Source: Prevotella sp.
GTDB taxonomy: Bacteria; Bacteroidota; Bacteroidia; Bacteroidales; Bacteroidaceae
Direction of reading: 5' to 3'
NCBI GenBank assembly: GCA_017469955.1
Contig: JAFUFJ010000004.1
Span: 1 to 64,000 of the forward strand
DNA: 64,000 bases
Shown: in pieces, positions 14,898 to 37,122 of the stretch
Layout: each line of letters opens with the position of its first letter
How positions within the stretch are numbered: position 1 is the stretch's first letter
Made by a program: the position numbers and the translations under genes
Notes under the pieces: model-generated
Told to the model about the DNA's origin: nothing
The model's input: only the letters and a program-made list of their open reading frames with translations
The model's database searches: none

Positions 14898-14932
14898 TCC
14901 TTCCTTTTAGGAATTTCATATTCACAAGTGAG

Positions 14933-15944: not shown

Positions 15945-15975
15945 CCCATCACATCCACCTATACCGACAACGACT

Positions 15976-18012: not shown

Positions 18013-18124
18013 GGACGGAAAGGCTTCCGAAAGCTGACGACATGGCTCTGCGATGCCTGAGAGAACGCAAAGACACCGCAGCCACACCACAACGGAAAAC
18101 AAACCAATCAACAAGCATATCACA

Positions 18125-20116: not shown

Positions 20117-20135
20117 CTCTTCATTCCATAACTCC

Positions 20136-20173
20136 GGGAGGCAGGCAAGACGCTCTTGTCTGCTTCCCTTTTT
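20136..20173 (+). terminator. intrinsic terminator ending the polysaccharide locus
   Basis: A 15-bp stem with one G-T pair (GGGAGGCAGGCAAGA with TCTTGTCTGCTTCCC, loop CGC) is followed by TTTTT. Confidence 0.9.
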
Positions 20174-20265
20174 CATGCCCTTCGGCGAGCCTTCCCGGCC
20201 TGAAGGACAAGCCTTCCGACGGCAATGCCGGCCCTGCGAGAGGCTGAAAGGACGGGAAAAAGAAC

Positions 20266-20350
20266 GAGATACGTAAGATGTATGAAGCATACATGTGCCT
20301 GGTATGGACCATACATCATAGATGTACGACCGAGAAAGGGCAGCTTTCTC
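20266..20350. repeat. modular 22-bp-period palindrome array A5 (hybrid, 4 clear modules)
   Basis: Modules with spacers aag, gac, acc. They include CATACATCATAGATGTACG, identical to a module of array A2, and GAGAAAGGGCAGCTTTCTC. Degraded modules may continue in phase to about 20416, reaching the 3' end of xerD. It lies in the convergent gap between the polysaccharide locus and xerD. Confidence 0.75.
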
Positions 20351-20408
20351 AGCCACGAGCAAAAGCCTGACGGCCATGAAGTTTCGCGCCTCAGGCGCTG
20401 AAAGCTTT

Positions 20409-21323
20409 CTATTCCTGGATGTTTCTCGGATGGTGCAGCAGGATTTCCTCGCGCAAAGTGGTCGTGTCAAGATGGGTATACACCTGAGTTGTGCGTATGC
20501 CCTCATGGCCGAGCATGACCTGTATGACGCGCAAGTCGGCTCCGCCTTTCAGCAGTTCGGTGGCAAACGAGTGGCGAAGGGTGTGGGGCGACACCGTCTT
20601 CTGGATGCCGGCAGCCTCGGCCTGACGCTTCAACATGATGAAAACCATGTTGCGGGTGAGGTGGCTTCCTCGACGGTTCAGGAACACATAGTCCTCCTCT
20701 CCAGGCTTGATCTTCATCCTGTTACGGTCGGAAAACCACCAGAAAAGCTCCTTCAGGGCCCGCTTCGAGATGGGCACGAGCCGTTCCTTACGCCCTTTAC
20801 CCATGACACGCACAAACTGTTCTTCAGCGTAAATGTCGGACATTCGCAGGCCAACCAGCTCTGACACACGCAGTCCGCACGAGAAAAGCACCTCGACAAT
20901 GGCCCGGTTGCGGTGCCCCAAAGGGTCGCTCATGTCGAAGGAAGCCTCAATGAGGTCGACCTCTTCTGTCGACAACACCTCGGGCAGATGCTGCGGAAGC
21001 GTAGGCCATTCGAGCAGCTCCGTAGGATCTTGATCGACAAAACCCTCCAAGAGCAGGTAACGAAAAAAGGCCCGCGTACCGCTCAGCACACGCGCCTGTG
21101 AACGCATACCCACACCATGCTCATGCAGCTGGGCAGCAAAAGCCTCCATGTCCTGCAACGCAAGCGACCCGACATCCAGCCCTTCACGCTCGCAAAAGTC
21201 AAGCAAATGCATCAAGTCACGATGGTAAGCATCCAGCGTGTTGGCCGAGAAATTACGCTCCAGCTTCAGGTATCGCATGTACATGCGAACAATATTTACA
21301 GAAGAAATCTTGCCAGTTTCCAT
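20409..21323 (-). CDS. xerD: tyrosine recombinase XerD
   Basis: Encodes 304 aa. It has an N-terminal SAM-like DNA-binding domain (LERNFSANTLDAYHRDLMHLL) and a catalytic domain with Arg in CGLRVSELVGL, Lys in GKGRKERLVP, HTLRHSFATELL, GHEGIRTTQVYTH and the nucleophile Tyr in the last. The catalytic set is complete. Length and architecture match XerC/XerD, which resolve chromosome dimers at dif. Divergence from aroQ supports the housekeeping gene rather than a mobile-element integrase. No dif-like site was recognised nearby. Confidence 0.9.
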   Translation of the reverse strand: METGKISSVNIVRMYMRYLKLERNFSANTLDAYHRDLMHLLDFCEREGLDVGSLALQDMEAFAAQLHEHGVGMRSQARVLSGTRAFFRYLLLEGFVDQDPTELLEWPTLPQHLPEVLSTEEVDLIEASFDMSDPLGHRNRAIVEVLFSCGLRVSELVGLRMSDIYAEEQFVRVMGKGRKERLVPISKRALKELFWWFSDRNRMKIKPGEEDYVFLNRRGSHLTRNMVFIMLKRQAEAAGIQKTVSPHTLRHSFATELLKGGADLRVIQVMLGHEGIRTTQVYTHLDTTTLREEILLHHPRNIQE

Positions 21324-21332
21324 TTAAATCCG

Positions 21333-21340
21333 TACCTTTG
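21333..21340 (+). promoter_or_regulatory. TACCTTTG -7 box for aroQ operon
   Basis: TAnnTTTG match in the plus orientation in the xerD-aroQ divergent gap, with TTGC near the -33 position. It would give a leader of about 215 nt before aroQ, in which I see no other feature. Confidence 0.5.
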
Positions 21341-21557
21341 CCCCGTAGAACCCGCCTTTCCGCACACGCGAAACACCGTCAGGGCCGCGTCTGCCGGCCA
21401 CCATTCAGCACCAGCCGGGAAGGGCTTTCGCCTGCAAATTTACAAAAAGTCGGAGGCAGAACAAAAGAAAAACAGCTCTTTTTCATGCCGAGGCAGCACA
21501 AATCCGACAAGCCGGCAAAGCCGCATCTGCAAAAATCATAGCGAAAACCGCACCATC

Positions 21558-21977
21558 ATGAAGATAGAAATCATCAACGGACCCAACCTGAACCTGCTCG
21601 GACAACGCGAGCCAGGCATCTATGGCAGCGAGTCGATGGAAACCCTTCTCGACAGCCTCCGCCGGAGATATCCCGAAATAGCCTTCACCTACTACCAGAG
21701 CAACGTCGAGGGGGAGCTCATCAACCGTATGCAGGAAAAGGGATTCGGAGCAGCCGACGGCATCATTATCAATGCCGGAGCCTACACACACACTTCGGTA
21801 GCTCTGCACGACTGCATACGGTCGCTGAAGACACCCGTCGTCGAAGTACACATCTCCAACATCTATCAACGCGAAGAATTCCGCCATCGCTCGCTCATCA
21901 GCAGTGCCTGCAAGGGCACGATCTGCGGTTTCGGCATGGATTCCTACAGGCTTGCCGTCGAGGCTTTCGTCGGATAA
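21558..21977 (+). CDS. aroQ: type II 3-dehydroquinate dehydratase
   Basis: Encodes 139 aa. It starts MKIEIINGPNLNLLGQREPGIYG, the classic type II dehydroquinase N-terminus. The loop holds the conserved Tyr, then QSNVEGELINRM, IINAGAYTHTSVALHD and VEVHISNIYQREEFRHRS with active-site His and Arg. It converts 3-dehydroquinate to 3-dehydroshikimate in the shikimate pathway, in the cytoplasm, as a dodecamer in known members. The open frame extends upstream to 21117, but homologous sequence begins at 21558. Confidence 0.95.
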   Translation: MKIEIINGPNLNLLGQREPGIYGSESMETLLDSLRRRYPEIAFTYYQSNVEGELINRMQEKGFGAADGIIINAGAYTHTSVALHDCIRSLKTPVVEVHISNIYQREEFRHRSLISSACKGTICGFGMDSYRLAVEAFVG

Positions 21978-22003
21978 CAGCCAAGCAACAAGCATCCATC
22001 ACC

Positions 22004-22636
22004 GTGACCATCGATGACTATATCCTGAAGTACAGCGAGCCCGAACCCGACTATCTCTACCGGCTCTGGCGCGCAACCAACATCCATACCGTCCACGGAC
22101 GTATGGCAAGCGGACACCTGCAGGGACGGTTGCTCAAGATGATCGTCGGCATGATACACCCGAAACGCATCCTTGAGATAGGCACTTTCAGCGGCTATTC
22201 GGCCCTCTCCATGGCCGAAGGTCTCGGCGAAGACGGAGAGATCTACACCTTTGAGGTCAACGACGAGATGGAAGACTTCACCCGTCCTTGGATAGAGCAG
22301 TCGCCCTGGGCCGACAAGATACACTTCATCATCGGCGACGCCAACATCGAAGCTCCGCGGCTCGGACTGTCATTCGACATGGCATTCATCGACGGTGACA
22401 AGCGCACCTATACCCAAACCTACGAAACTATCATGCCGCTCATGAACAAAGGAGCATACATTCTGGCCGACAACACACTGTGGGACGGGCACGTATGCGA
22501 CAGCAATTACGACCACGACCGGCAGACTTCTGGCATTAAAGACTTCAACGAGCACGTCGCCAACGACCCCAGAGCCGAACAGGTCATACTGCCTTTGCGC
22601 GACGGACTCACCATCATCAAGATCAACAACCCATAA
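22004..22636 (+). CDS. class I SAM-dependent O-methyltransferase (caffeoyl-CoA OMT type)
   Basis: Encodes 210 aa. It contains RILEIGTFSGYSALSMAEGL (SAM-binding motif I), a FEVNDE acidic turn, DMAFIDGDKRTYTQTYE (metal-binding region) and GAYILADNTLWDGHV, all typical of the cation-dependent OMT-3 family. The substrate of bacterial members is mostly unknown. It begins with GTG 26 bp after aroQ and is co-transcribed. The only nearby ATG is out of frame, so the GTG start is accepted. Confidence 0.85.
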   Translation: MTIDDYILKYSEPEPDYLYRLWRATNIHTVHGRMASGHLQGRLLKMIVGMIHPKRILEIGTFSGYSALSMAEGLGEDGEIYTFEVNDEMEDFTRPWIEQSPWADKIHFIIGDANIEAPRLGLSFDMAFIDGDKRTYTQTYETIMPLMNKGAYILADNTLWDGHVCDSNYDHDRQTSGIKDFNEHVANDPRAEQVILPLRDGLTIIKINNP

Positions 22637-22647
22637 CCATCACAAAT

Positions 22648-24081
22648 ATGAAAAAGACCATCATCGCCAGCATCATGATGCTGTTAGCCGCAGGAGCCAC
22701 CGAAATCTTCGCACAAGCAGGCTCGGGTGTCTACGTCGGAGGACACATTCGACGCCAACGACCCACGACCGTCAGCAAGCTGAAATCATCCGGTTTTACC
22801 TACGTTATCTTGTTCAACGTCAACGTAGATACCAACGGTGACCTCACCGTAGACAACGGAGGCGAGGCAGGAGGAGTCATCTGCAGGGACGGAAAATACG
22901 TGTTTGACAGCGTACAACCCTACTATGCCGGCGACGTCAAGAACCTGAAGACCCAGCCAACCGGCATCGAACGCGTCGAGATATGCATCGGAGGATGGGG
23001 CAACCAGTCCTATAACAACATCAAAAGCCTCGTCAACAGCGAGGGCACGGGCGAGACTTCCATCCTTTATCGCAACTTCAAGGCACTCAAAGAGGCCATC
23101 CCCGAAATCGACGCCGTCAACAATGATGACGAGCATGCCTATGATGTCAACTCGGCAGTGGCCTTCCATGCCATGATGTACGAGCTGGGATATCAGACAA
23201 CCGTAGCACCCTATACCCAGAAAAACTATTGGACTCAGCTCGTCACCCAGCTCAACAATCTGCACAAAGGAGCCTGCGACCGAGTGCTGATCCAATGCTA
23301 TGACGGCGGTGCCTATAACAATCCTTCCAATTGGCACATTGACAACATACCCTTGCATGCCGGAAGAACCAACTACCAGACTGACATGAATACCTCAATT
23401 GAGCAAATGCAGTCGTGGAAAAACGTCAACGGTGTGACCGGCGGATTTGTGTGGGTATACAACGATGAGACATGGGACTTGCACAATTGGGCCACGGCCA
23501 TGAACCGCGTCTTTAAGCCCAAACAGGTGCCTGCAGGAGAAATTGCTGCCACACTCTATAGTGAAGCCGGCTACGGAGGCTATGCCGTTGACCTGCCTAT
23601 GGGAGAGTTCTACCAGGCACAGCTGGCCGCTTACGGCGTGACTCGCAACGATATCGAGTCAGTAAAGCTTGCCGAAGGCTATCAAATCGTCATCGGTACG
23701 AGCTCGGAACCTTACCGAGGAACGCGTATAACCTTCACCGAGTCGTCGGCAGACCTTAGCTATGTCACCACGAACGGCAAGGAAAACAACCTGCGCAACC
23801 GGGTAAACTCGGTGACCATCAGCAAGATTGACGACACGGCAGTCAAGGAAATAGCCGGAGAAGCAGCAGGAAAACTAACGATCATTCCCAACCCTGCTTC
23901 CGACGAAGTGGCCATTCGCGGAGCTAAAGGCAACACGGTCACCCTCTTCGACCTCAGCGGAAGAAAGGTGATGGAGCAGCCTTTCGACGCCAGACAGGCA
24001 GTTGTCGACGTAAGCAGGCTGGCCTCTGGTGCCTATATCCTTCGCATAGGAGCCCAATCGGGCACCTTCATCAAGCGGTAA
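22648..24081 (+). CDS. secreted GH18-like protein with beta/gamma-crystallin domain and type IX tail
   Basis: Encodes 477 aa with a signal peptide (ends IFAQ). Residues 25-290 look like a GH18-type TIM barrel: YVILFNVNV, VEICIGGWGNQS, the acidic motif IDAVNNDDEHAYD near 154-166 at the place of DxxDxDxE, and GGFVWVYNDETWD. Residues 300-390 resemble a beta/gamma-crystallin domain (LYSEAGYGGYAVDLPMGEF, GTRITFTESSADLSYV). The last 75 residues are a type A sorting domain (IIPNPASDEVAI, LFDLSGRKVME, SGAYILRIG). It is likely an exported endo-N-acetylglucosaminidase-like or chitinase-like protein; the altered acidic motif leaves activity uncertain. It sits inside a housekeeping gene run, 11 bp after the methyltransferase. 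Confidence 0.75.
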   Translation: MKKTIIASIMMLLAAGATEIFAQAGSGVYVGGHIRRQRPTTVSKLKSSGFTYVILFNVNVDTNGDLTVDNGGEAGGVICRDGKYVFDSVQPYYAGDVKNLKTQPTGIERVEICIGGWGNQSYNNIKSLVNSEGTGETSILYRNFKALKEAIPEIDAVNNDDEHAYDVNSAVAFHAMMYELGYQTTVAPYTQKNYWTQLVTQLNNLHKGACDRVLIQCYDGGAYNNPSNWHIDNIPLHAGRTNYQTDMNTSIEQMQSWKNVNGVTGGFVWVYNDETWDLHNWATAMNRVFKPKQVPAGEIAATLYSEAGYGGYAVDLPMGEFYQAQLAAYGVTRNDIESVKLAEGYQIVIGTSSEPYRGTRITFTESSADLSYVTTNGKENNLRNRVNSVTISKIDDTAVKEIAGEAAGKLTIIPNPASDEVAIRGAKGNTVTLFDLSGRKVMEQPFDARQAVVDVSRLASGAYILRIGAQSGTFIKR

Positions 24082-24141
24082 GCGAATGCTGAAGCTACCG
24101 GCATGCCAGCCGCTTCAAACATTATTCATTAATCATCTACT

Positions 24142-24477
24142 ATGCAAGAGACAAGACAAAACAAGATTGCACGAATGCTTCAAAAGGAGCTGAGCCTCAT
24201 CTTCCAGGGACAAACCCGCATGATGCACGGCGTGATGGTGAGCGTAACACGCACAAAAGTGTCGCCCGACCTGAGCGTCTGCACGGCCTATCTGAGCGTG
24301 TTTCCTTCGGAAAAGGCCGAAGAGATCGTAGCCAACGTCAACGCAAACACGAAGACTATCCGCTACGAACTGGGCACTCGCATCCGCAATCAGGTGCGCA
24401 TCATCCCCGAACTACGCTTCTTCGTCGACGACTCGCTCGACTATATCGACCGTATTGACGAGCTGTTGAAGGGATAA
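24142..24477 (+). CDS. rbfA: 30S ribosome-binding factor A
   Basis: Encodes 111 aa. It starts MQETRQNKIARMLQKELSLIFQ and has the compact KH-like fold pattern (VMVSVTRTKVSPDLSVCTAYLSVFP, RYELGTRIRNQVRIIPELRFFVDDSLDY). RbfA assists 16S 5' end maturation and 30S assembly, especially in the cold. Length and motif order fit the family well. It lies 60 bp after the secreted GH18-like gene. Confidence 0.95.
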   Translation: MQETRQNKIARMLQKELSLIFQGQTRMMHGVMVSVTRTKVSPDLSVCTAYLSVFPSEKAEEIVANVNANTKTIRYELGTRIRNQVRIIPELRFFVDDSLDYIDRIDELLKG

Positions 24478-24550
24478 AGGCATTGCCCATCCGGCGAAAA
24501 ACCTTTTGGACTTGCCGTTTTTTACATAAATTTCAGACTCGAAAGATCAC

Positions 24551-25777
24551 TTGAACTTCCCGTTTTACATAGCCCGTCGCTATCTGTTTGCCAAGAAGTC
24601 GACCAATGCCATCAATGCCATCTCGGTGATTTCGGTGACAGGTATTGCCGTTGCCACGATGGCACTTGTCATCGTGTTGAGTGTTTTCAACGGTTTTTCC
24701 GACCTTGTCGGCACGCTGCTCACTAATTTTGATCCGCAACTGAAGGTAGTTCCGCTGCAGGGAAAGACGGCTGCGGCCGACGATCCTGTGCTCGAAAGTG
24801 TCAGACAGATGCCTGAAGTGCTGATTGCCACCGACTGTGTTGAAGACATCGCCCTGGCCGTTTATGAGGGCAAACAGCAAATGGTGACGGTGATGGGGGT
24901 CGACGATAACTTCAAGAAGCTTACCCGTATTGACGACATTCTCTATGGAGACGGCCAGTTTATGCTGTCGGATGACGGGCTGCAATATGGCATTCCCGGC
25001 ATACGACTGGCCGACAACCTAGGCATCTTAGCCCATTGGGGTGGGTGGCTTCGCATCTTTGCGCCGCAGAAAGAGGGGCAGCCTGACTTGTCGAACCCGA
25101 TGGAAGCACTGGTTTGCGACTCGCTGTTGTCGCCGGGAGTCGTGTTCGGAGTCAATCAGGGTCGCTACGATACCGACCATATACTGACGTCAGTGAGCTT
25201 TGCCCGCATGCTGTTTGGCGAGCAGGGACGCGTCTCTTCACTGCAGCTGAAGCTGAAAGACACGCGCATGGTGGGCCGTGTGAAGAAGCGCATCAACCAG
25301 CTTGCTCCCGACCGTTTCAAAGCACTCGACCGCTACGAGCAGCAGGAAGACACCTTCCACATTATGCAAATAGAGAAATACCTGGCCTATCTCTTCCTGA
25401 CTTTCATACTCCTTGTGGCCTGTTTCAACATAGTGGGCACCCTCTCAATGCTCATCATTGAGAAGCGCGACGATACGCAAACCTTGCGCAGCATGGGGGC
25501 CGACGACCAGCACATCACTCGCATTTTCCTCTATGAAGGGCGCATCATCACGGTCATCGGAGCCGTGGCAGGCACTCTTGTCGGCTTGCTTTTATGCCTC
25601 TTACAGCAGGTGTTTGGCACCGTAAAGCTTGGGGCTTCGTCGGGCAGTTACATCGTCGATGCCTACCCGGTAAGTGTGCATGCTGCCGATGTTCTCTTGA
25701 TTGTGGCGACGGTGATTGCGGTGGGATGGCTCTCGGTATGGTATCCCGTGCGCTACCTGTCGAAACGCCTTCTATAG
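24551..25777 (+). CDS. LolC/LolE-type ABC transporter permease
   Basis: Encodes 408 aa. It starts LNFPFYIARRYLFAKKSTNAINAISVISVTGIAVATMALVIVLSVFNGF (first membrane helix), then a periplasmic MacB-like domain, then three C-terminal helices with the FtsX core (LAYLFLTFILLVACFNIVGTLSMLIIEKRDDTQTLRSMGA). Such permeases release lipoproteins from the inner membrane together with LolD. The start codon is TTG with no in-frame ATG nearby. It follows rbfA by 73 bp. No ATP-binding subunit gene is adjacent. Confidence 0.85.
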   Translation: MNFPFYIARRYLFAKKSTNAINAISVISVTGIAVATMALVIVLSVFNGFSDLVGTLLTNFDPQLKVVPLQGKTAAADDPVLESVRQMPEVLIATDCVEDIALAVYEGKQQMVTVMGVDDNFKKLTRIDDILYGDGQFMLSDDGLQYGIPGIRLADNLGILAHWGGWLRIFAPQKEGQPDLSNPMEALVCDSLLSPGVVFGVNQGRYDTDHILTSVSFARMLFGEQGRVSSLQLKLKDTRMVGRVKKRINQLAPDRFKALDRYEQQEDTFHIMQIEKYLAYLFLTFILLVACFNIVGTLSMLIIEKRDDTQTLRSMGADDQHITRIFLYEGRIITVIGAVAGTLVGLLLCLLQQVFGTVKLGASSGSYIVDAYPVSVHAADVLLIVATVIAVGWLSVWYPVRYLSKRLL

Positions 25778-25828
25778 GTAAACCGCAAGGAAGGCGGTGA
25801 GAAACCGCGCCGATACATAGCGAGAAAA

Positions 25829-25860
25829 TTTGGCCGTCAAGGCCTGTATCCTTAATTTTG
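25829..25860 (+). promoter_or_regulatory. promoter TTTG-N20-TAATTTTG
   Basis: A full Bacteroidetes promoter (TTTG 25829-25832, TAATTTTG 25853-25860). It is about 190 bp before the M15 peptidase start but only 40 bp before a 43-codon ORF, which supports that ORF or a structured leader. Confidence 0.8.
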
Positions 25861-25899
25861 CACCCGGCATCCGGCTGCTCTGCGACAGAGAACAGCCCG

Positions 25900-26031
25900 A
25901 TGTCGGGATTTTCAGTCCCACACAACACGAAGACCAACACCAAGGCTGACGCGAAGCCCCTGCGTCGAAGACGACCAGCACCGCCCGAGACGACCTGGCC
26001 AGGGCTGTTCTTCAAGCAGCCGATTCATTAA
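25900..26031 (+). CDS. candidate 43-aa basic peptide
   Basis: ATG to TAA encodes 43 residues: it starts MSGFSVPHNTKTNTK, has a cluster PLRRRRPAPPE and ends WPGLFFKQPIH. It begins about 40 bp after a full promoter and ends 21 bp before the M15 peptidase gene, so it would be the first gene of that transcript. The composition (Arg/Pro-rich centre, aromatic-hydrophobic end) suggests a nucleic-acid-binding or membrane-active peptide, but I recognise no family. It may instead be just a leader region. Confidence 0.4.
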   Translation: MSGFSVPHNTKTNTKADAKPLRRRRPAPPETTWPGLFFKQPIH

Positions 26032-26052
26032 CCCTTTTAATCAAAACACATC

Positions 26053-26493
26053 ATGCAACACGACAAAAGACTAAGCGAGCACTTCATGCTCAGCGAGTTT
26101 ACTCGCTCTGAAACGGCCCGAAGACTGGGCATCGGCAACGAGCCGAATGTGGAACAAACCGAAAACTTGCGCAACTTGTGTACCGAGATTCTCGAGCCGC
26201 TCCGGCGTGCCTTCGGACCCATCTACATCAACAGCGGCTACCGCAGTGCGCGCCTCAACGAGGCTGTAAGGGGCGTAGGCAACAGCTGTCACCTGAGGGG
26301 TGAGGCCGCCGACATTCGCATTCCTGACCTGCAGACGGGCGTCAAGTACTACCAGTTCCTGCGCGATCACACCAACTTCGACCAGCTGCTCTTCGAATAC
26401 AACCGGCGGGACAGCGTCTGGATCCACGTGAGTTGCAAGCAGGAGATTGCCCTCAACCGACACCAAGCCTTCCCTAACTATGCGACAGACTGA
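26053..26493 (+). CDS. M15-family D-Ala-D-Ala carboxypeptidase-like metallopeptidase
   Basis: Encodes 146 aa. Zinc-site residues are visible: His80 and Asp87 in SCHLRGEAADI, and His125 in SVWIHVSC. INSGYRSARLN is the usual upstream motif. Members cleave peptidoglycan cross-bridges or stem peptides. There is no signal peptide, which is usual for the small M15_3 type often carried by phages and integrative elements, although no phage genes are present here. Its stop overlaps the next gene by 14 nt. Confidence 0.85.
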   Translation: MQHDKRLSEHFMLSEFTRSETARRLGIGNEPNVEQTENLRNLCTEILEPLRRAFGPIYINSGYRSARLNEAVRGVGNSCHLRGEAADIRIPDLQTGVKYYQFLRDHTNFDQLLFEYNRRDSVWIHVSCKQEIALNRHQAFPNYATD

Positions 26494-26707
26494 AGCTTTG
26501 ACCTCCGCGCCGACCGGCAACTCTGCCCGGCTACTCACCTGCAAGCACTGCGGAACGACGCAGGACGAGCGCCACTTTGCCCTGCTTCCAAGCCGAAACC
26601 GGCGCCGCATCTGCAACCATTGCCGATACGTATTGACCATACGTCCGAGCCGAGTCAGGCGGTGGATCAGGGAACTTGAGGCCGGGCACGGAGACGATTC
26701 GTTCTGA
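26480..26707 (+). CDS. small zinc-ribbon protein coupled to the M15 gene
   Basis: Encodes 75 aa with two CxxC pairs, Cys21/Cys24 (CKHCG) and Cys45/Cys48 (CNHC), spaced as in a four-Cys zinc ribbon, and an Arg-rich second half (RNRRRIC, RPSRVRRWIR). Its ATG lies inside the end of the M15 gene, so translation is probably coupled. Nucleic-acid binding is likely from the fold; the role is unknown. Confidence 0.6.
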   Translation: MRQTEALTSAPTGNSARLLTCKHCGTTQDERHFALLPSRNRRRICNHCRYVLTIRPSRVRRWIRELEAGHGDDSF

Positions 26708-26727
26708 GAAGGCGCGGAAAGGACGCC

Positions 26728-26834
26728 GAGAAAGCTAAGACTTCAGGGTGAGAAGTCTAAGAGTTGTCATCGAGAAAGCTAAGACTTCTCGGCCATAACT
26801 CTAAGACTTCTCGGGCTGAAAGCATAGCTTTCTC
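26728..26834. repeat. modular 22-bp-period palindrome array A6 (5 modules)
   Basis: Five 19-bp modules with spacers ggt, atc, ggc, ggg. The central module is GAGAAAGCTAAGACTTCTC and the last is CTGAAAGCATAGCTTTCTC. It starts 20 bp after the zinc-ribbon stop, in the convergent gap before upp. Confidence 0.9.
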
Positions 26835-26906
26835 AGCCAGACTCCTCAACACTTCGGGAGACATCAACGGCCCAACCCGTCGGGAAAGGCCGTGCAGACA
26901 CACAAG

Positions 26907-26944
26907 AAGGGCAGGCCTCCACCTTGCGGAAGACCTGCCCTTTT
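26907..26944. terminator. bidirectional terminator between zinc-ribbon gene and upp
   Basis: AAGGGCAGG (26907-26915) pairs with CCTGCCCTT (26934-26942), with further inner pairs. T-rich runs follow on the plus side, and the minus side is T-rich past the stem. Confidence 0.8.
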
Positions 26945-26960
26945 GCTTTATTTGCCGACC

Positions 26961-27617
26961 TTACAGCTTCTCTCCGTAGCACAAGTCGCCACAGTCTCCA
27001 AAGCCAGGCACGATGTACTTGTGCTCGTTCATGCCCGGATCGACGACCGCACACCACAGCGTAGCATCCTCTGGCACGGCTTTTCCTACCACCTCTATGC
27101 CCTCGGGCACGGCAATCACGCAGGCGATGTGTACCCGTTTGGGCCGTCCAGTCTTAGCCAACGCCTCGTAAGCGGCTGCCATCGAACCGCCCGTTGCCAG
27201 CATCGGATCGACGATGATGAGCGTCTTTCCCTCGACGCTCGGTGCTGCCATATACTCTGTATGGACGCCCACCTCGGTGTGCTCGCGATTGGTATACATG
27301 CGATAGGCTGACACAAAACCGTTGTCAGCATGATCGAACACGTCGAGAAAACCCTCGTGGAACGGCAATCCTGCACGCAATACCGTGGCAACGACCACCT
27401 CGTCCTGAGGCAAACTGACCAAGGCCGTGCCCAGCGGCGTGGCCACTTCACGCTCAGCATAGTCGAGCGACTGCGAGAGCTCATAGGCCATCATCTGGCC
27501 GATGCGCCGGATGTTGTTGCGGAAATTCAAACGATTCTTCTGGTAATTCTGGTCGCGAAGCTCAGCCAAATACTGATTGACAATACTGTTCTTCGCCGAA
27601 ATGTTGATAGTCTTCAT
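26961..27617 (-). CDS. upp: uracil phosphoribosyltransferase
   Basis: Encodes 218 aa. It has the PRPP-binding loop IIVDPMLATGGSMAAAYEAL, TVLRAGLPFHEGF, and the uracil-binding end VVDPGMNEHKYIVPGFGDCGDLCYG. It salvages uracil to UMP in the cytoplasm. An in-frame ATG exists at 27674, but it lies upstream of the promoter boxes at 27644-27675, so MKTINISAKNS at 27617 is the start. Confidence 0.95.
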   Translation of the reverse strand: MKTINISAKNSIVNQYLAELRDQNYQKNRLNFRNNIRRIGQMMAYELSQSLDYAEREVATPLGTALVSLPQDEVVVATVLRAGLPFHEGFLDVFDHADNGFVSAYRMYTNREHTEVGVHTEYMAAPSVEGKTLIIVDPMLATGGSMAAAYEALAKTGRPKRVHIACVIAVPEGIEVVGKAVPEDATLWCAVVDPGMNEHKYIVPGFGDCGDLCYGEKL

Positions 27618-27643
27618 TGCAGATGGTATTTCTAAACTGCCTG

Positions 27644-27675
27644 CAAAGATATAAAAAACAGGGCGACCCGACAAA
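27644..27675 (-). promoter_or_regulatory. promoter of upp, TTTG-N20-TATCTTTG
   Basis: On the minus strand, TTTG (27675-27672) and TATCTTTG (27651-27644) are 20 bp apart, about 27 bp before the upp ATG. It fixes the upp start. Confidence 0.85.
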
Positions 27676-27837
27676 ATATTTCACGAAAAAAGCCATTGTC
27701 GCCCAACACTTTCATCAAGCACAGCAAGGCCTGCAATTTTGCAAAACAGACTTTACAAAAAACTTCACTCCACTCCGTTTTTACCACTCTTTAACTCAAA
27801 AAGCGAGCCATAAATGCAAATAAATCATAATTACTAA

Positions 27838-27867
27838 TTTCAAATTGCCATTTTCTTCGTAACTTTG
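27838..27867 (+). promoter_or_regulatory. promoter of pckA, TTTC-N18-TAACTTTG
   Basis: TAACTTTG at 27860-27867 with TTTC 18 bp upstream, 65 bp before the pckA ATG. The 27676-27837 segment between the two divergent promoters is AT-rich without other features. Confidence 0.7.
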
Positions 27868-27931
27868 CATCCGCCTTTCAAAGGCTGTTACCGCAAACGA
27901 ACATAAAAAAATAAATACTTATTCAAAGATT

Positions 27932-29554
27932 ATGGCAAAATTTGAGAAATCAGTTTTAGAGCAGTACGGTATCACCGGTACTACCGAAGTGGTTTACAAT
28001 CCTTCCTACGAAGTATTGTTTGAAGAAGAGACAAAAGAAGGTCTCGAGGGTTTTGACAAAGGCCAGCTCACCGAGCTCGACGCCGTTAACGTGATGACCG
28101 GCATCTATACCGGCCGTTCGCCAAAAGACAAGTTCATCGTCGACGACGAGAATTCTCACGACACTGTATGGTGGACCTCAGAGGAATACAAGAACGACAA
28201 CCACCGCGCCAGCAAGGAAGCTTGGGCAGCAGTGAAAGAACTTGCCAAGAAAGAACTCTCCAACAAGCGCCTCTTCGTGGTCGATGGTTTCTGCGGAGCC
28301 AACGAAGACACCCGCATGGCCGTACGCTTCATCATGGAAGTAGCATGGCAGGCTCACTTCGTAAAGAACATGTTCATCCGCCCGACAGAGGCCGAACTCG
28401 AAAACTTCGAGCCCGACTTCATCGTATACAACGCATCAAAGGCAAAGGTAGAGAACTACAAAGAGCTCGGCCTCAACTCTGAAACAGCCGTAGTTTTCAA
28501 CGTCACCAGCAAGGAACAGGTCATCCTGAACACATGGTACGGCGGTGAGATGAAGAAAGGAATGTTCTCGATGATGAACTACTTCCTCCCACTGAAGGGC
28601 ATGGCTTCTATGCACTGCTCGGCCAATACCGATATGAATGGCGAGAACACAGCTATCTTCTTCGGCCTTTCCGGCACAGGAAAGACCACCTTGTCTACCG
28701 ACCCGAAGCGTCTGCTTATCGGCGATGACGAACATGGATGGGACGACAACGGTGTGTTCAACTTCGAGGGTGGATGCTATGCAAAGGTAATCAACCTTGA
28801 CAAAGAGAGCGAGCCCGACATCTACAACGCTATCCGTCGCAACGCACTTCTCGAAAACGTCACCGTGGCAGAAGACGGAAAAATCGACTTCGCCGACAAG
28901 AGTGTCACCGAGAACACCCGCGTAAGCTATCCTATCGAGCACATCGAAAAGATCGTACAGAAGAAGAATGGCAAGAGTGCCGGACCGGCTGCAAAGCAGG
29001 TGATCTTCCTCTCAGCTGACGCATTTGGCGTACTGCCCCCAGTGTCAATCCTCACACCCGAGCAGACGAAGTACTACTTCCTCTCCGGATTTACCGCAAA
29101 GCTCGCCGGCACAGAGCGCGGCATCACCGAGCCTACTCCAACCTTCTCTGCTTGCTTCGGACAGGCATTCCTCGAGCTGCATCCTACCAAATATGCAGAA
29201 GAACTGGTAAAGAAGATGGAAAAAAGCGGTGCAAAAGCCTACCTTGTGAACACCGGTTGGAACGGTACCGGCAAACGTATCTCCATCAAAGACACACGCG
29301 GTATCATCGACGCTATTCTCGACGGTTCGATCAACAACGCACCTACCAAGAACATTCCTCTGTTCAACTTCGAGGTGCCCACAGAACTTCCTGGCGTAGA
29401 TCCCAACATTCTCGACCCACGAGACACCTATGCTGACGCCGCCGAATGGCAGAAAAAAGCAGAAGATCTGGCAGCACGCTTCATCAAGAACTTCGGCAAA
29501 TACACCACCAACGAGGCTGGTAAAGCCCTTGTGGTTGCAGGTCCGCAGCTCTAA
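27932..29554 (+). CDS. pckA: ATP-dependent phosphoenolpyruvate carboxykinase
   Basis: Encodes 540 aa. It contains [15 protein letters not shown], the Walker A-like [14 protein letters not shown], the Mn/Mg site ([23 protein letters not shown]), and [17 protein letters not shown]. These mark the ATP-type enzyme. In Bacteroidales it fixes CO2 onto PEP to give oxaloacetate during fermentation to succinate, conserving ATP. Codon use and strength of the promoter suggest high expression. A terminator follows 28 bp after the stop. Confidence 0.97.
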
Positions 29555-29582
29555 TGTGATTCACACATCGTAGTAACGATAG

Positions 29583-29613
29583 AAAAAGACCGGCCCCAAG
29601 GCTGGTCTTTTTT
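29583..29613. terminator. terminator of pckA
   Basis: AAAAAGACCGGCC pairs with GGCTGGTCTTTTTT (loop CCAA), one G-T pair, with A and T tracts on both sides. Confidence 0.9.
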
Positions 29614-29717
29614 CTTGGCAAAAGGACTGACAACAACCTGCCCAGGATACACCTCTTCGCGGAAAGGTTGATTTAAGTCAAAAAGACAGGCTGCACTCAA
29701 AATTGTCAACCACATTT

Positions 29718-29748
29718 TTTGCCAAACAGAAAACTTGTCGTAACTTTG
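29718..29748 (+). promoter_or_regulatory. promoter TTTG-N19-TAACTTTG for a candidate RNA
   Basis: A consensus promoter (TTTG 29718-29721, TAACTTTG 29741-29748) without a protein gene behind it. The next ORF begins about 470 bp later and has its own -7 box. Confidence 0.8.
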
Positions 29749-29754
29749 CATCGT

Positions 29755-29910
29755 GTTCGCGAGAACATTGCAAATAATGGTTTTTCATAATAAAGTTTTC
29801 ATTAGGTTAGTAGTTTGATAGATTTTAAGGAAAAGATTGTGTTATCAAAACCTTATCGGTAACATTTATCTTATGGAGGCCGGCATCAGTGAGTGATGTC
29901 TTCCTCTTTT
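29755..29910 (+). ncRNA. candidate small RNA of about 155 nt
   Basis: It starts just after a full promoter and ends in a hairpin with a T-tract (29876-29906 then TTTT). The first transcribed bases form GTTC-gcga-GAAC (29755-29766). Only trivial ORFs are inside. I do not recognise it as tmRNA, SRP RNA or RNase P RNA; a 6S-like or regulatory RNA is possible. Downstream 29911-30072 shows nothing clear. Confidence 0.5.
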
Positions 29911-30072
29911 TCTTTTATAGACCTGCCAACTGCACTGCAATCAGCACCCGAAACCTTTTCATGCACCTCTTGAACAGCCAGCACCTTAGCCGGCGGCAAC
30001 GGCCCGCCACTACGTTTCGCCACCCTAAAATTTCCCTATATAGAAGCCATCCAACTCTAAACAGAACTTAAA

Positions 30073-30128
30073 AAAAAGCCCCTGAATGATTATTTTACAT
30101 AATAAAGCATTAAAAAAGGTGGCTTTTT
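30073..30128. other. long hairpin before the lipoprotein gene
   Basis: AAAAAGCC (30073-30080) pairs with GGCTTTTT (30121-30128), with an inner AATG-TTATT / AATAA-CATT stem. It lies just before the -7 box TAAATTTG at 30142-30149, so it is probably a transcript end separating the RNA unit from the next operon. Confidence 0.45.
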
Positions 30129-30141
30129 GAGGATTTCTGAT

Positions 30142-30149
30142 TAAATTTG
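30142..30149 (+). promoter_or_regulatory. TAAATTTG -7 box for the 30218 operon
   Basis: TAnnTTTG match 69 bp before the lipoprotein ATG. No well-spaced -33 TTTG was found. Confidence 0.55.
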
Positions 30150-30217
30150 CATGCTAAAAGTCTGCGGTGGCAATTATACCAATTTGTCATTGCAGGGAAA
30201 TAATTGCATCAGAAAGA

Positions 30218-31660
30218 ATGAAAAGAAATCCATACATATTGGCCATGATGCTCACGACGATGCTTGCCTTGACATCGTGCCTGGGCGACAACAAAGACAA
30301 CATTGTCTATACCCACGACGCAGCAATCACGTCGTTTTCGCTCGGAACATTAAACAGATATACTTATGTAGAATCGAGCACTGGTGCCGACAGTCTTGTG
30401 AAATCTACGGTTACGGGGTCAAGCTACAGGTTCTACATTGACCAGCTCAACAAGGAGATATACAATCCCGACTCACTGCCTTATGGCACTGATGTGGCCC
30501 ACGTCATATGCACCATCGGAAGCAAAAACGCAGGTACCATTACCATCAAAAGCCTCACAAGCGACTCGTTGAGATACTATAGCAGCAGCGACTCTATTGA
30601 CTTCAGCCAGCCACGCATGTTCAGAGTGTTCAGCAACGATGGCGGAGATTCCAACATTTATCGCATCAAAGTGAACGTACACCAGCAGGAACCCGACGAG
30701 TTCAACTGGACTTTAATGTCGGAAAAGCAAGACGCCTACCTGACAAGTGCCTCCCATGTGCGCCTGTCGGCTGCAGGTTCTGACGTATATGCCCTCATGA
30801 CAACAGCGTCAGGCGTCACTGTTCTGACGAACCTTAAAGAGCGTATTGCCCTATTAAACACCTCTGGCAATGGCGATTCCGGCACGCTCGACGATGCAGA
30901 CATAGAGCTGAGTGGCCAGGCTATCAACAACATTGCGGTCAAGAACGGTCGGCTCGTAGTCTACGAACCCGAGAAGAATACGTTGCACTTCTATGGAAAA
31001 GACTATGAGAAACGTGAGGGAATAGATGCTCGTGTCAGCCAGCTTATCGGAGCTACGGATGCCAATCTCTATGCCTTGTCGACAGAAGGCGGACTGCTTG
31101 CGTCTCGCGACAACGGAACCACATGGACAGAAGAGGCGGTTGAGAATGCCAACAAGAACATGCTTCCCAACGAAAACATACGCCTCGTCAGCATCCCTTC
31201 AAAGACCAACCTTGAAACCAGCCGTCTGGTTTTGGCCGGTCTCAATACAAAAATCAACACGGTTGACAACATGATGGTATGGGGAAAGGTGGAAGAAAAC
31301 GGAGAATACGCCGAGAGCAACCAGTGGTTCTACTATCCGAAGAGCGCCATTAACAAATATCCACTGCCATCATTGCAGAACATTCAGTTCGAAGCCTATG
31401 ATGATGGAATCTTGGCATTTGGAACCACCAGCGATGAAGAAATCTCAACCATATATTTCAGTCGTGACCTTGGCATTACATGGCCTGCGAGCACTCTCGT
31501 CAGCTTTCCCGACGGGTTTGCTCCACAAAACACGGCTTATGCCATGACCGTCGACAGCGAAAACTATCTCTGGCTGGCCGACGGCACTACAGGAAAAGTC
31601 TGGCGCGGACGACTGAACAGGCTCGGGTGGACAGAGAATCAAAAGAGTTTCACTGAATAA
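30218..31660 (+). CDS. DUF6242-like lipoprotein with propeller-type repeats
   Basis: Encodes 480 aa with a lipoprotein signal (MLALTSCLGDNKDN). The N-terminal 160 residues are a beta-sandwich-like region (TSFSLGTLNRY, SNIYRIKVNVHQQEPDEFNW). The rest repeats a BNR-like pattern (LLASRDNGTTWTEE, IYFSRDLGITWPAS), suggesting a beta-propeller. It resembles the DUF6242 family found before outer-membrane assembly genes. The gene ends 15 bp before the DUF6089 gene, so it probably begins the bamA operon. Residues before MKRNPY in the open frame lack a signal and are excluded. Function unknown. Confidence 0.7.
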   Translation: MKRNPYILAMMLTTMLALTSCLGDNKDNIVYTHDAAITSFSLGTLNRYTYVESSTGADSLVKSTVTGSSYRFYIDQLNKEIYNPDSLPYGTDVAHVICTIGSKNAGTITIKSLTSDSLRYYSSSDSIDFSQPRMFRVFSNDGGDSNIYRIKVNVHQQEPDEFNWTLMSEKQDAYLTSASHVRLSAAGSDVYALMTTASGVTVLTNLKERIALLNTSGNGDSGTLDDADIELSGQAINNIAVKNGRLVVYEPEKNTLHFYGKDYEKREGIDARVSQLIGATDANLYALSTEGGLLASRDNGTTWTEEAVENANKNMLPNENIRLVSIPSKTNLETSRLVLAGLNTKINTVDNMMVWGKVEENGEYAESNQWFYYPKSAINKYPLPSLQNIQFEAYDDGILAFGTTSDEEISTIYFSRDLGITWPASTLVSFPDGFAPQNTAYAMTVDSENYLWLADGTTGKVWRGRLNRLGWTENQKSFTE

Positions 31661-31675
31661 ACTTCTACTAACAAT

Positions 31676-32362
31676 ATGAAAAGACTCCTGTCACTGCTAC
31701 TGATGCTCCTCGCCTTTGCTACCGTCAAAGCACAAGGCGATGTAGAATACCGCGCCGAAATCGGTGCCGGAGCAGGGCTCGTAGCTTATGAAGGAGATTT
31801 TAACGGCAGTGTATTAAAGAATCAACAGCCTATCGCATCCGTGATTTTCCGCCGGCTTTTCAACCCAAGAAGCGGACTGAAGATATCGGGAAGCTACGGT
31901 AAATTAAAAGGCTCATCCAAGAATGCAGACACTTACTACATTGACTTCGCAGACCAACCCTATGGGTTTAACAGCTCATTAGCTGACGTCAGCATAGTAT
32001 ATGAATACAATCTCTGGCCCTATGGAACCGGCAGAGAATACCGAGGAGCCAAGCCTTTGGTTCCCTATTTGGCCATCGGTCTTGGAGCCACTTATGCTTC
32101 GGCTGACAACGATACCAACTCCTTTGCCGTCAACATGCCAATAGGCATAGGCCTGAAATATAAGATTGCAGACCGGCTAAACCTGGGAATAGAATGGACT
32201 ATGCACTTCTCAGGAAGCGACAAACTTGACGGAATTGCGGATCCTTACTATGTCAAGAGCAACGGCATCTTCAAAAACACCGACTGCTATTCGGCCCTGC
32301 AACTGTCACTGACCTATTCTTTCATGGCCAAATGCCGAACCTGTCACAACGCCGACGAATAG
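31676..32362 (+). CDS. DUF6089-type outer-membrane beta-barrel protein
   Basis: Encodes 228 aa with a signal peptide (ends VKAQ). Alternating beta strands, glycine turns and aromatic residues ([63 protein letters not shown]) indicate a small barrel. It lies immediately upstream of uppS and bamA, the conserved position of DUF6089 in Bacteroidetes. An odd C-terminal [10 protein letters not shown] follows the last strand; CRTCH resembles a haem c motif but stands alone at the very end. Function is unproven; an envelope assembly link is inferred from position. Confidence 0.8.
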
Positions 32363-32393
32363 GATCCTGTACGAAATTAGCACCAATACTCGC

Positions 32394-33149
32394 ATGACAA
32401 AGATAGACATGACACGGATTCCACGGCACATCGCCATCATCATGGATGGCAATGGAAGGTGGGCTGTACAACAGGGAAAGCCCAGGAACTATGGCCATCA
32501 AGCCGGAGTAGACACTGTCAGGCGCATCACTTCTGAATGCACTAAGCTCGGCGTAAAGTATCTAACACTCTATACTTTCTCGACAGAAAACTGGAATCGT
32601 CCTGCCGATGAAATATCAGCATTGATGGGGTTGGTGCTCTCATCGCTTGAAGATGAGATATTCATCAAGAACAATGTACGGTTTCAAGTGATAGGCGACA
32701 TCAAACGACTGCCAGAAGAAGTGCAGGAGAAACTACAGACAACCATGGAACATACGGCACAAAACGACGCAATGACCATGGTGGTAGCCCTCAGCTATTC
32801 AAGCCGATGGGAAATAACAGAAGCCGTTCGCAACATTATCAAAGAAACAAAAGACAAAGATACTTCTACTGATTTAGCTGCAGAAATCACAGAAAACACC
32901 ATCAGCAGGCATTTGACTACGAATTTCATGCCTGACCCCGATCTGCTTATCAGGACAGGAGGAGAAACAAGAATCTCCAATTTCCTGCTATGGCAAATAG
33001 CCTATTCCGAGCTATATTTCTGCGATACCTACTGGCCAGACTTCACGGAAGCCGACCTCCACAAAGCCATTGAAAGCTACCAAGGACGGCAAAGAAGATT
33101 CGGAAAGACCGAGAAACAAGTAGAAGAGGAAAACAATAAAGACGCTTAA
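32394..33149 (+). CDS. uppS: undecaprenyl diphosphate synthase
   Basis: Encodes 251 aa. The catalytic start is [17 protein letters not shown] with the essential Asp, followed by [22 protein letters not shown], and near the C-terminus [27 protein letters not shown]. It is a cis-prenyltransferase that condenses isopentenyl diphosphate to C55 carrier lipid for cell-wall and O-antigen synthesis. It ends 9 bp before bamA. Confidence 0.97.
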
Positions 33150-33158
33150 CACAATAAT

Positions 33159-35870: not shown

Positions 35871-35913
35871 CTTTACAGTCAACAAGAAACATAACTTTCA
35901 AACCATTAATAGT

Positions 35914-36426
35914 ATGAAAAAAGCGATAATGATGCTCGTCATGCTCGTATCGGCCATGACTATGAGCGCCCAAAAGTTTGCTTTGCTCGACATGGAATAC
36001 ATCATGAAGAATATTCCGGCCTACGAGCGTGCCAACGAACAGCTTAACCAGGTGTCGAAAAAGTGGCAGGCTGAAGTAGAGGCTCTTAACACAGAAGCCT
36101 CAACCATGTATAAGAACTATCAGAACGAGGTGGTGTTCCTCTCTGAAGAGCAGAAGAAAGACCGTCAGGAATCCATCATGAAGAAGGAGAAAGAGGCCAG
36201 CGACCTGAAGCGCAAGTATTTCGGTCCTGAGGGCGAGCTCTACAAGAAGCGCGAGAGCCTCATCTCGCCCATTCAGGACGAGATATGGAATGCTGTGAAA
36301 GACATTGCAGAGCTTCGCGGCTACAGTCTTGTGCTCGACCGCGCCTCCGACACAGGAATCATCTACGGATCGCCCAAGATCGACATCTCAAACGAGGTGC
36401 TCCAGAAGCTGGGTTATTCAAATTGA
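35914..36426 (+). CDS. OmpH/Skp family periplasmic chaperone 1
   Basis: Encodes 170 aa with a signal peptide (ends TMSAQ), then KFALLDMEYIMKNIPAYERANEQLNQVSKKW and a long charged coiled coil (residues 45-120). The Skp family forms trimers that hold unfolded outer-membrane proteins on the way to BamA. It is 43 bp after bamA and the first of three paralogues. The start is the ATG before the signal peptide. Confidence 0.9.
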   Translation: MKKAIMMLVMLVSAMTMSAQKFALLDMEYIMKNIPAYERANEQLNQVSKKWQAEVEALNTEASTMYKNYQNEVVFLSEEQKKDRQESIMKKEKEASDLKRKYFGPEGELYKKRESLISPIQDEIWNAVKDIAELRGYSLVLDRASDTGIIYGSPKIDISNEVLQKLGYSN

Positions 36427-36495
36427 CAAGTTGAAAGACCTGCTAATTGACAGAGCAACAAAATAATTAATTAACAAAATAACAACGTAACGACA

Positions 36496-36990
36496 ATGAA
36501 AAAGATTATGATCATGATGATGCTCTTCGCACCGATGAGCATCTTCGCCCAGAAGTTTGGCCATGTTGACACCCAATCCATCATCTCGACCCTGCCTGAA
36601 ATCAGCAAGGTCGACGGAGAAATAAAGGCGCTTGCACAAGAGAAGGACAACCAAATCCAGGCCATGGCACAGGAGTTCCAGCGCAAAGTGGAGGAATATC
36701 AGAAGAACCTCAGCACCATGAACCAGACCAAGAAGGACGAGGTGGAGAAGGAACTTGGCGACATGCAGCAGAAAATCCAGCAGGCAAATCAGGATGCTCA
36801 GCAAGAGCTTGCACAGGTTCAAAGAGAAAAGTATGAGCCCATCCAGAACAAGATCCGCACAGCCATCGAGAACGTAGGCAAGGCCGGAGGCTATATATAC
36901 ATCTTCGAGACGGGCGTTGCCCTCTATACTGGTCCCGACTCCAAGGACGTCACTGCCGACGTAAAGGCCGAACTCTCCAAGATGAAATAA
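36496..36990 (+). CDS. OmpH/Skp family periplasmic chaperone 2
   Basis: Encodes 164 aa with a signal peptide (ends IFAQ). It starts KFGHVDTQSIISTLPEISKVDGEIKALAQEK and has a coiled coil rich in Gln and Lys (QNLSTMNQTKKDEVEKELGDMQ region). Same family as its neighbours but clearly diverged, so an old duplication. It lies 69 bp after the first copy. Confidence 0.9.
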   Translation: MKKIMIMMMLFAPMSIFAQKFGHVDTQSIISTLPEISKVDGEIKALAQEKDNQIQAMAQEFQRKVEEYQKNLSTMNQTKKDEVEKELGDMQQKIQQANQDAQQELAQVQREKYEPIQNKIRTAIENVGKAGGYIYIFETGVALYTGPDSKDVTADVKAELSKMK

Positions 36991-36993
36991 AGA

Positions 36994-37038
36994 AGACCGT
37001 CGCCCAAGTCCTCCCCCGCAGGAGGACAAGGGCGGTCT
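36994..37038 (+). terminator. GC-rich hairpin between skp paralogues 2 and 3
   Basis: AGACCG-CGCCC-TCCTCC pairs with GGAGGA-GGGCGGTCT. No T-tract follows, so it may attenuate or stabilise rather than stop the transcript. A second small hairpin (CCTTC/GAAGG) lies near 37074. Confidence 0.4.
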
Positions 37039-37122
37039 ATAAAGAGAGCCAAGAGGACAGAAGCCTCTCCCAACCCTTCCGACCGAAGGGAAGTTACAAA
37101 CCTGTTAAATAGGAATCTTGAT

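Follow-up and report, generated by a model that had tools for sequence, protein, structure and literature searches.

The window, that is, the whole analysed stretch of 64,000 nt (positions 1 to 64,000 of contig JAFUFJ010000004.1, assembly GCA_017469955.1, from a Prevotella sp.), holds eleven arrays of short quasi-palindromic modules, which are listed in Table 1 together with the AA/TT periodicity of the same DNA. A first-pass annotation had reported these eleven copies, and at all 11 places we read what it had described. It had claimed 19-bp modules separated by 3-bp spacers, which is true of the seven pure copies of five AA-type modules each, and a restricted vocabulary of half-site words and module centres, which all 70 words and all 35 centres (TAA, TTA, TAT, ATA) of these seven copies fit. 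The pure copies align without gaps over 107 columns, with a mean column identity of 85%.

Table 1. Arrays and AA/TT lattice in the 64,000-nt window
Feature	Position	Strand	Basis or remark
Five-module AA-type array, 107 bp	282..388	+	sequence read and matrix scan
Mixed array, four modules (three AC-type, i.e. family B, and one AA-type)	3634..3718	no strand	sequence read
Five-module AA-type array	6693..6799	-	sequence read and matrix scan
Five-module AA-type array	15044..15150	-	sequence read and matrix scan
Mixed array, four modules (AC-type and one AA-type)	20266..20350	no strand	sequence read
Five-module AA-type array, focus of the first-pass annotation	26728..26834	+	both strands near-equal, 143/142 bits
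Five-module AA-type array	38811..38917	+	sequence read and matrix scan
Five-module AA-type array	46714..46820	-	132 bp past the stop of the carbamoyl-phosphate synthase large-chain gene
Five-module AA-type array	50058..50164	-	sequence read and matrix scan
Degenerate nine-module array, 195 bp	54865..55059	no strand	74 bits over 54887-54993, under the counting cut
Mixed five-module array (outer modules AA-type, inner AC-type)	61662..61768	no strand	sequence read
AA/TT lattice, window alone	1..64000	no strand	period 11.02-11.03 bp, lags 130-2000; not array-specific

Some other features of the window were recorded. At its start, 1-37 and 133-169 are palindromic, T-run-ended, terminator-like near-copies (95%) lying 132 bp apart; a tyrosine recombinase gene (Phage_integrase and SAM-like domains, 20409-21323) directly adjoins the mixed array at 20266-20350; and 853-3405 and 18125-20116 encode proteins of 850 and 663 aa without a Pfam match at E 0.001. 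SusD, TonB-plug and BspA-type LRR genes are present in the genome and point to the Bacteroidota.

The genome was sampled as five contigs, window included, which cover 745.7 kb of the 2,259,279 bases of an assembly that is 75.6% complete. These contigs were scanned with an ungapped position-weight matrix that had itself been trained on them; it found 84 places above 25 bits, against a best score of -65 in the reversed sequence; all counts below use the 76 clean 107-bp five-module arrays scoring more than 110 bits and exclude 8 places at 31-99 bits. The mean distance from array to array in this sample is 9.5 kb, and by extrapolation from the matrix scan the whole assembly would contain about 230 arrays. 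A search of the whole genome with an array model, in which 150 of 1233 candidates were scored, gave at least 151 matches, among which several single places were counted once per strand. We also counted clusters of self-match, requiring at least 62% over 66 bp: lag 22 gave 78, and the remaining 20 lags in the range 15-35 gave a single one between them, so that chance is excluded as the origin of the arrays. Since indels could escape an ungapped matrix, the two halves of the array were scanned separately. Both halves exceeded 45 bits in 138 pairs, of which 130 were at the exact distance and 8 were off by exactly 22 bp, some of these clearly being one array read one module off; over distances of 30 to 90 no distance occurred besides the exact one or that plus or minus one 22-bp module. 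The strict 22-bp phase claimed earlier thus holds in the 76 arrays and in the half-array scan, and the genome scan did not show its loss in most copies. Reversed-sequence controls were left unused for AA-9-TT chains and for chains with at least three modules: reversing such a symmetric chain reproduces its pattern, which makes the control invalid or inflates it.

The grammar of the window copies extends to the sample. In the 76 arrays 719 of 760 words come from the same eight (AAAGC, AAGTC, AAAGG, AACCC, AACTC, AAACC, AAATC, AATCC) and 366 of 380 centres are TAA, TTA, TAT or ATA, the other 14 being TGC, GCA, ACA, TGT or TTG. Only 21 of the 64 possible AANNN words occur, and half-site words change as blocks. 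The earlier claim that words are reassorted between copies while the spacing is kept is supported. The AA/TT slots are almost invariant across arrays and the remaining slots vary. Once oriented, the arrays carry strong half-sites in five fixed slots, the other five slots being freer, a point on which the first-pass annotation was silent; precisely, the strong slots hold GAGAAAGC at both ends and GAGAAGTC twice, and that of the middle module holds GAGAAAGG or, in about a quarter of arrays, GAGAAAGC. Pyrimidine-purine steps are avoided within words, and none of the 380 AA-to-TT halves is without such a step, which usually lies at the centre. The suggestion that half-sites recurring near every helical turn would suit a protein on one face of the DNA is likewise supported. 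Copying of words between modules was considered and rejected, the identity excess being weak only (z 1.9 at lags 44 and 8).

Two more families of 22-bp arrays were found in this genome: family B, with modules of the form CATACATC.ATA.GATGTACG, and family C, of the AAAAGATCATCTTTTG type, with tandem intergenic copies on contigs C4, C22, C11 and C20.

According to our own hexamer-based gene calls, none of the 76 main-family arrays reaches more than 5 bp into a called gene. For the 74 arrays with both neighbours the flanking genes are co-directional in 38 cases, convergent in 22 and divergent in 14, and the arrays lie a median of 100 bp from 3′ ends and 206 bp from 5′ ends; where the neighbours are co-directional, the upstream stop is closer than the downstream start for 31 of 38 arrays. 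Their spacing along the contigs is not significantly regular (CV 0.74 against 0.87 for the null, with 6.6% of null sets as low).

The phase of the arrays does not stop at their ends. The first-pass annotation was right on grammar, spacing and reassortment, and it omitted that the 11-bp phase extends beyond the arrays into flanks and coding DNA. In the window, the autocorrelation of AA/TT has an amplitude of 2.24% at lags of 130-300 bp, 0.85% at 1-2 kb and 0.14% at 2-4 kb; for lags 130-300, 50 jittered-block surrogates peak at 0.29%. All five contigs have this lattice, with a sharp AA/TT period of 11.01-11.04 bp over lags 130-4000 and amplitudes of 2.07-2.57% at 130-300 bp, 0.87-1.18% at 1-2 kb and 0.31-0.63% at 2-4 kb; for comparison, 50 kb of E. 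coli gave 0.15% at 130-300 and 0.10% at 1-2 kb, and 50 kb of Synechocystis pSYSM gave 0.34% and 0.07%. AA and TT carry the lattice, GC comes next among dinucleotides and TA hardly contributes. In array flanks AA/TT keeps the array phase further than any other sequence conservation, and coding DNA still has it in the bin at 660-1100 bp, the most distant one analysed (R 0.23). The rhythm is equally strong in intergenic gaps that have no array. We note that Rayleigh and chi-square values assume independent AA/TT steps and are inflated by runs of A, and for this reason we rely on effect sizes, shuffles, jittered-block surrogates and replication.

Coding DNA alone has an amplitude of 2.07% at 130-300 and 0.76% at 1000-2000, of which a shuffle of codon order leaves 0.03% and 0.06% and a shuffle of synonymous codons within genes leaves 0.21% and 0.08%. 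Since the synonymous shuffle removes most of the coding amplitude, the lattice lies mainly in synonymous choice. An order score of z >3 was reached by 393 of the 473 genes tested; the score rises with GC (Spearman 0.59), the median GC being 0.48 in the 47 weakest genes vs 0.53 overall. The nine weakest-order genes that were annotated include SusD, DUF4961, OmpA and ETF domains, and the weakest genes are not only obvious newcomers. Lattice order is 0.22-0.30 in coding DNA, about equal near arrays and more than 8 kb away from them. Coherence is 0.83 across gaps with an array, 0.80 across gaps without one and 0.63 in gene interiors, and the phase advances by 0.83 rad and 0.59 rad across the two kinds of gap, respectively, as if the intergenic period were slightly shorter.

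The link with codon choice was measured with a lattice phase predicted solely from DNA 18-400 bp away. By this phase the GAA share of Glu codons ranges from 0.26 to 0.88 (n=13,782), the AAA share of Lys codons from 0.19 to 0.74 (n=11,174) and GTT vs GTC from 0.13 to 0.68; the ranges for CAA, TTT and GAT are 0.15-0.67, 0.19-0.54 and 0.12-0.49, respectively. All nine codon pairs tested are strongly phase-dependent. E. coli K-12 showed no comparable phase swing (50 kb, four codon pairs). Among relatives with the lattice, Glu and Lys codons are phase-dependent in 5 of 5 tested, and Val and Gln codons in 3 of 5 each (G021 lying outside this test), and in three other relatives none of four codon pairs is, with one at p=0.054.

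The register of the arrays was determined from the lattice phase 20-420 bp outside the array, on both sides. The AA of main-family arrays lies at the lattice peak (R=0.943, 9 degrees, n=74); family B behaves in the same way (R=0.93, 0 degrees, n=33, or 0.84, n=46, with a looser pattern), and family C lies within about one base of the peak (R=0.99, n=44; 2 or -31 degrees depending on the base chosen). Because all of them show this near-peak register, the three array families, unrelated in sequence, have one rotational setting. As control words, ATG and TGCA gave R=0.07 and R=0.04, and GATC gave R=0.25 (n=1583), its tetramers being unevenly set on the lattice in the five contigs. The arrays were rejected as the source of the lattice: order is flat with distance from an array, and since the lattice does not weaken away from them they do not create it. 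They were also rejected as curvature maxima, as none of the 76 exceeds the noncoding 99th percentile at helical repeats of 10.5 and 11.0; the median phased AA/TT sum is 13.0 in arrays vs 17.3 for that percentile.

A scan of related genomes, proposed with the first-pass annotation, found 22-bp arrays with related words in some relatives. With the array model, at least 16 of 398 members of the genus, this genome included, matched at E<=1e-5, the others among them weakly (nine candidates scored per genome, strict filters). The words of the relatives are mostly AAAGC.TAT.GCTTT, with AAACC, AACTC, AACCC and AAGTC also present; the flanks differ, and some relatives carry quite different 22-bp sequences. 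The lattice was sampled in 27 congeners (9.8 to 140 kb each), 13 of which were picked for having array matches. It is clear in six (G184, G012 with 20 kb, G016, G092, G021 with 15 kb, and G006), weak, short-ranged or doubtful in five (G004, G055, G156, G220, G013) and not seen in the 16 others. G006 has a period of 10.95 bp rather than 11.03 and some lag-21 tandem repeats, and in G010 we left out of the lattice and codon measurements one locus, L080, in which 8 kb (7984-16016) are self-matching at both lags tested and are perhaps masked or low-complexity; this locus was still included in the autocorrelation analysis that covered the five contigs. Three relatives have arrays without a kilobase lattice, with 3, 2 and 2 lag-22 clusters in 60, 40 and 40 kb (G380, G099 and G388, respectively). 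Seven members of other families of the order (G024-G027 and G029-G031; at least 13 kb each) gave no lag-22 clusters and no clear lattice.

The arrays of relatives are in register in G016 (R=0.93, n=6) and G006 (R=0.81, n=9); the result for G092 is suggestive of the same (R=0.73, n=5, p=0.07), and G220, G380, G099 and G388, with one to three arrays each, have too few for a register. In small samples no conservation of the lattice phase between orthologues was detected, either in 31 alignments with G006 (R=0.12, p=0.29) or in five other species with 1-10 alignments each. The uracil phosphoribosyltransferase gene was found in 17 of 20 relatives; a clear 22-bp array within 500 bp after it occurs in one of the 17 (G220, 0.64), weak lag-22 signals (0.52-0.57) occur in G016, G092 and G010, and in G004 a secondary lag-22 signal (0.55) accompanies a best signal at lag 21 (0.68). 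Upstream of this gene, the loci of G014 (L157) and G340 (L160) have an 11-bp tandem repeat (GGGTGACAGAT) and a 22-bp satellite (CATATATTAC...), both absent downstream of it in the same two loci. The exact module gave one match across 84,980 species genomes, in Myroides phaeus, which we took as chance, and one match in viral contigs, without a surrounding array; phages held no near match to one stretch of the window.

Several known systems resemble the arrays or the lattice in part. Iteron, parC and parS operator arrays have tandem sites at one or two helical turns with cooperative protein binding, and they occupy few loci per replicon, whereas the arrays described here are dispersed over the chromosome about every 10 kb. 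The BrickBuilt MITE of Porphyromonas gingivalis is, according to PMC4596501, also intergenic, from the Bacteroidota, and made of tandem 23-nt units with inverted ends; it is described there as direct 23-nt repeats of 1 to 22.8 units with a leader, a tail and IS5-like TIRs, in 19 copies, which themselves vary in target-site duplication. By contrast, our arrays are 22-bp dyads, mostly of five modules and 107 bp, without leader or tail, in many more copies, with a word grammar and in lattice register. REP elements, as the extract of PMC3733652 presents them, also occur as many intergenic palindromic copies for which a supercoiling role is hypothesised; they are palindromes of 20-40 bp, whereas the arrays are five phased dyads without pair covariation.

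The nearest relative of the lattice is the A-tract periodicity of about 11 bp known as a 'structural code', in which, according to parts of PMC4132750, PMC3372288, PMC3431218, PMC3940949 and PMC7537859, AA/TT is dominant, the period is near 11 bp, coding and noncoding DNA take part and third codon positions carry much of the signal. An AA/TT period of 10-12 bp in coding and noncoding DNA, a trait of this bacterial periodicity, is found here as well. The limit of 100-150 bp, a usual rather than strictly defining trait, is not: the extract of PMC3372288 has the signal in many genomes end by about 150 bp, whereas here the signal stays coherent over 1-2 kb and codon choice changes by more than a factor of three from one phase to another. 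The persistency of PMC3431218 is, in the part consulted, the fraction of windows with a signal and not phase coherence. For E. coli, PMC7537859 gives about 2% variation in spacing abundance at a period of 11.07 and argues for selection. In the parts of the five papers that we consulted (PMC4132750, PMC3372288, PMC3431218, PMC3940949, PMC7537859) no in-register arrays are described. The claim that no named family has the array grammar agrees with our searches of Rfam (for the window) and of the PMC literature, subscription journals lying outside the scope, and in the same literature no description of chromatin-like order of such a kind in bacteria was found.

Our tentative reading, to which we give slightly less than an even chance, is that the arrays are DNA-level platforms for protein dimers bound side by side, in genome-wide rotational register and probably in the service of nucleoid architecture. 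The platform would consist of five quasi-palindromic 19-bp dyads at an exact 22-bp pitch, equal to two turns of 11.0 bp, so placed that five putative protein dimers would sit side by side on one DNA face; it is the dyad symmetry and the pitch that suggest such dimers. The platform would be set in a chromosome-wide rotational register: AA/TT steps follow a lattice of 11.03 bp that keeps its coherence for 1-2 kb, and genes carry it mainly through synonymous codon choice. A dyad-symmetric DNA-binding protein would read the arrays, and lattice and arrays may together serve nucleoid or supercoil architecture, with the arrays as candidate intergenic sites, some 10 kb apart, for docking or for the pinning of loops. 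Topological domains are about 10 kb. We consider this role the likeliest use because the arrays are intergenic in every orientation, numerous, and in register with a genome-wide structural signal. Pinning of plectoneme tips by curved DNA, as cited in the extract of PMC4132750, fits this architecture. In favour of the reading are the intergenic position and strict spacing of the arrays, the missing covariation, the lattice in all five contigs with its phase-dependent codons, and the common register of three array families and of the arrays in two relatives. Speaking against it, the searches for HU, HU-HIG and histones yielded no binding protein, lattice order is independent of the distance to an array, small samples of three relatives have arrays without a kilobase lattice, the arrays fall short of the most curved DNA, the register in G092 is merely suggestive, the array behind the uracil phosphoribosyltransferase gene is clear in one of 17 relatives, and small samples show no conserved phase between orthologues.

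Two other explanations we each regard as very improbable. In one, the array is a mobile repeat of the MITE or REP-like kind, whose ends are inverted (GAGAAAGCTA...TAGCTTTCTC) and which is spread by a transposase in trans and then decays. Terminal inverted repeats, a MITE trait, are indeed present, GAGAAAGCTA and TAGCTTTCTC being inverted and conserved, and they are also ordinary array half-sites; moreover, the copies are dispersed between genes, and there are a few near copies at 0.93-0.94 identity (a trio on C4 and pairs on C22 and C20). Decay, however, would hit the grammar at random, yet the AA/TT slots are near-invariant while others vary. Target duplications of 4-9 bp are absent (0 of 76 arrays), those of 2 and 3 bp, in 1 and 3 of 76, are at the level of shuffled pairs (means 1.3 and 2.9), and flank identity between arrays averages 0.32, with few pairs up to 0.73, where the arrays themselves have a mean pairwise identity of 0.74 and a maximum of 0.94. 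Nothing is conserved outside the arrays past the adjoining spacer-like bases and the lattice-phase AA/TT of the flanks. The five closest pairs are each within one contig, and the closest three arrays, those on C4, have common flanking sequence, as local duplication would give; some arrays therefore arose in that way. In the other explanation the array acts once transcribed, as a long RNA hairpin, terminator or processing site, for which its quasi-palindromic form, its frequent position after a gene end and the lean of three outer pairs towards complementarity (14-94, z 3.2; 13-95, z 2.3; 17-91, z 2.1) can be adduced. Taken over the full axis, compensatory changes are nevertheless not in excess: the palindrome shows no Watson-Crick covariation along its length, the axis K=108 is outside the eight best, the best axis anywhere reaches z=1.0, and other single pairs are negative (53-55, z -3.7; 39-69, z -3.4). 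Rfam gave no match at gathering score in the window, and terminator-like hairpins, by our own crude definition, start in the array at 11 of 82 gene ends and before it at 6 of 82. RNA structure was rejected as the basis of the arrays for want of covariation and of an Rfam match, and, given that covariation is absent and the register is shared, the arrays act as DNA.

That the arrays are operator clusters of an ordinary transcription regulator, or operon-end regulatory elements, the lattice being an independent trait of the genome to which any array of sites with a 22-bp pitch would become aligned, seems to us rather unlikely. The relatives that have arrays and no kilobase lattice agree with it, as does the closeness of most arrays in co-directional gaps to the upstream stop; against it, 22 of 74 arrays have convergent neighbours, a setting that calls for no promoter, some 230 extrapolated copies are many for one regulon, and the common register of three unrelated families demands an extra reason. 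Less probable still is a lattice that is a mutational imprint, left because DNA held in fixed register on a protein mutates or is repaired with helical periodicity, the arrays being merely in the same register. Such an imprint would be carried mostly by synonymous sites, as the lattice is, and the rise of order with GC is what AT-rich recent arrivals would give, although AA/TT density may confound it. Order in noncoding DNA (0.17-0.26) is, however, not above that of coding DNA, and a register fixed over evolutionary time would itself require a scaffold.

Within the platform reading, it is possible, though we rather doubt it, that in some members of the genus a scaffold with about 11.03 bp to the turn keeps the greater part of the chromosome in a fixed rotational register over kilobases, overriding normal codon choice, with the arrays as docking or register sites for a putative lattice-reading protein. 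The lattice alone is no proof of a scaffold, because strong coupling of neighbouring turns could give kilobase coherence without a kilobase-long filament. The arrays and their register are of a new kind, since the arrays match none of the known families tested and a register that is coherent and sets codons exceeds known periodicity; on a stricter view the lattice may be an extreme variant of the known periodicity of about 11 bp.

If the platform reading is true, synonymous codons in a bacterium would be set largely by DNA geometry and not by translation or base composition alone, and the purpose of 11-bp genome periodicity, an old question, would become directly testable. The arrays offer a defined 107-bp bait for the putative register-reading protein, and since the trait differs among species of one genus, whether it is present or absent and how strong it is can be traced to genes. 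Searches for HU, HU-HIG and histones gave no candidate binding protein: the copy numbers of HU and HU-HIG have no pattern with lattice presence, and no histone-fold gene turned up in any of 14 genomes. All three were rejected as the cause of the lattice, as their counts do not follow it. HU-HIG (PF18291) is expanded in two of the genomes, with 30 matches in G003 and 40 in G099 against 2-19 in 12 others, cross-matches of plain HU being counted.
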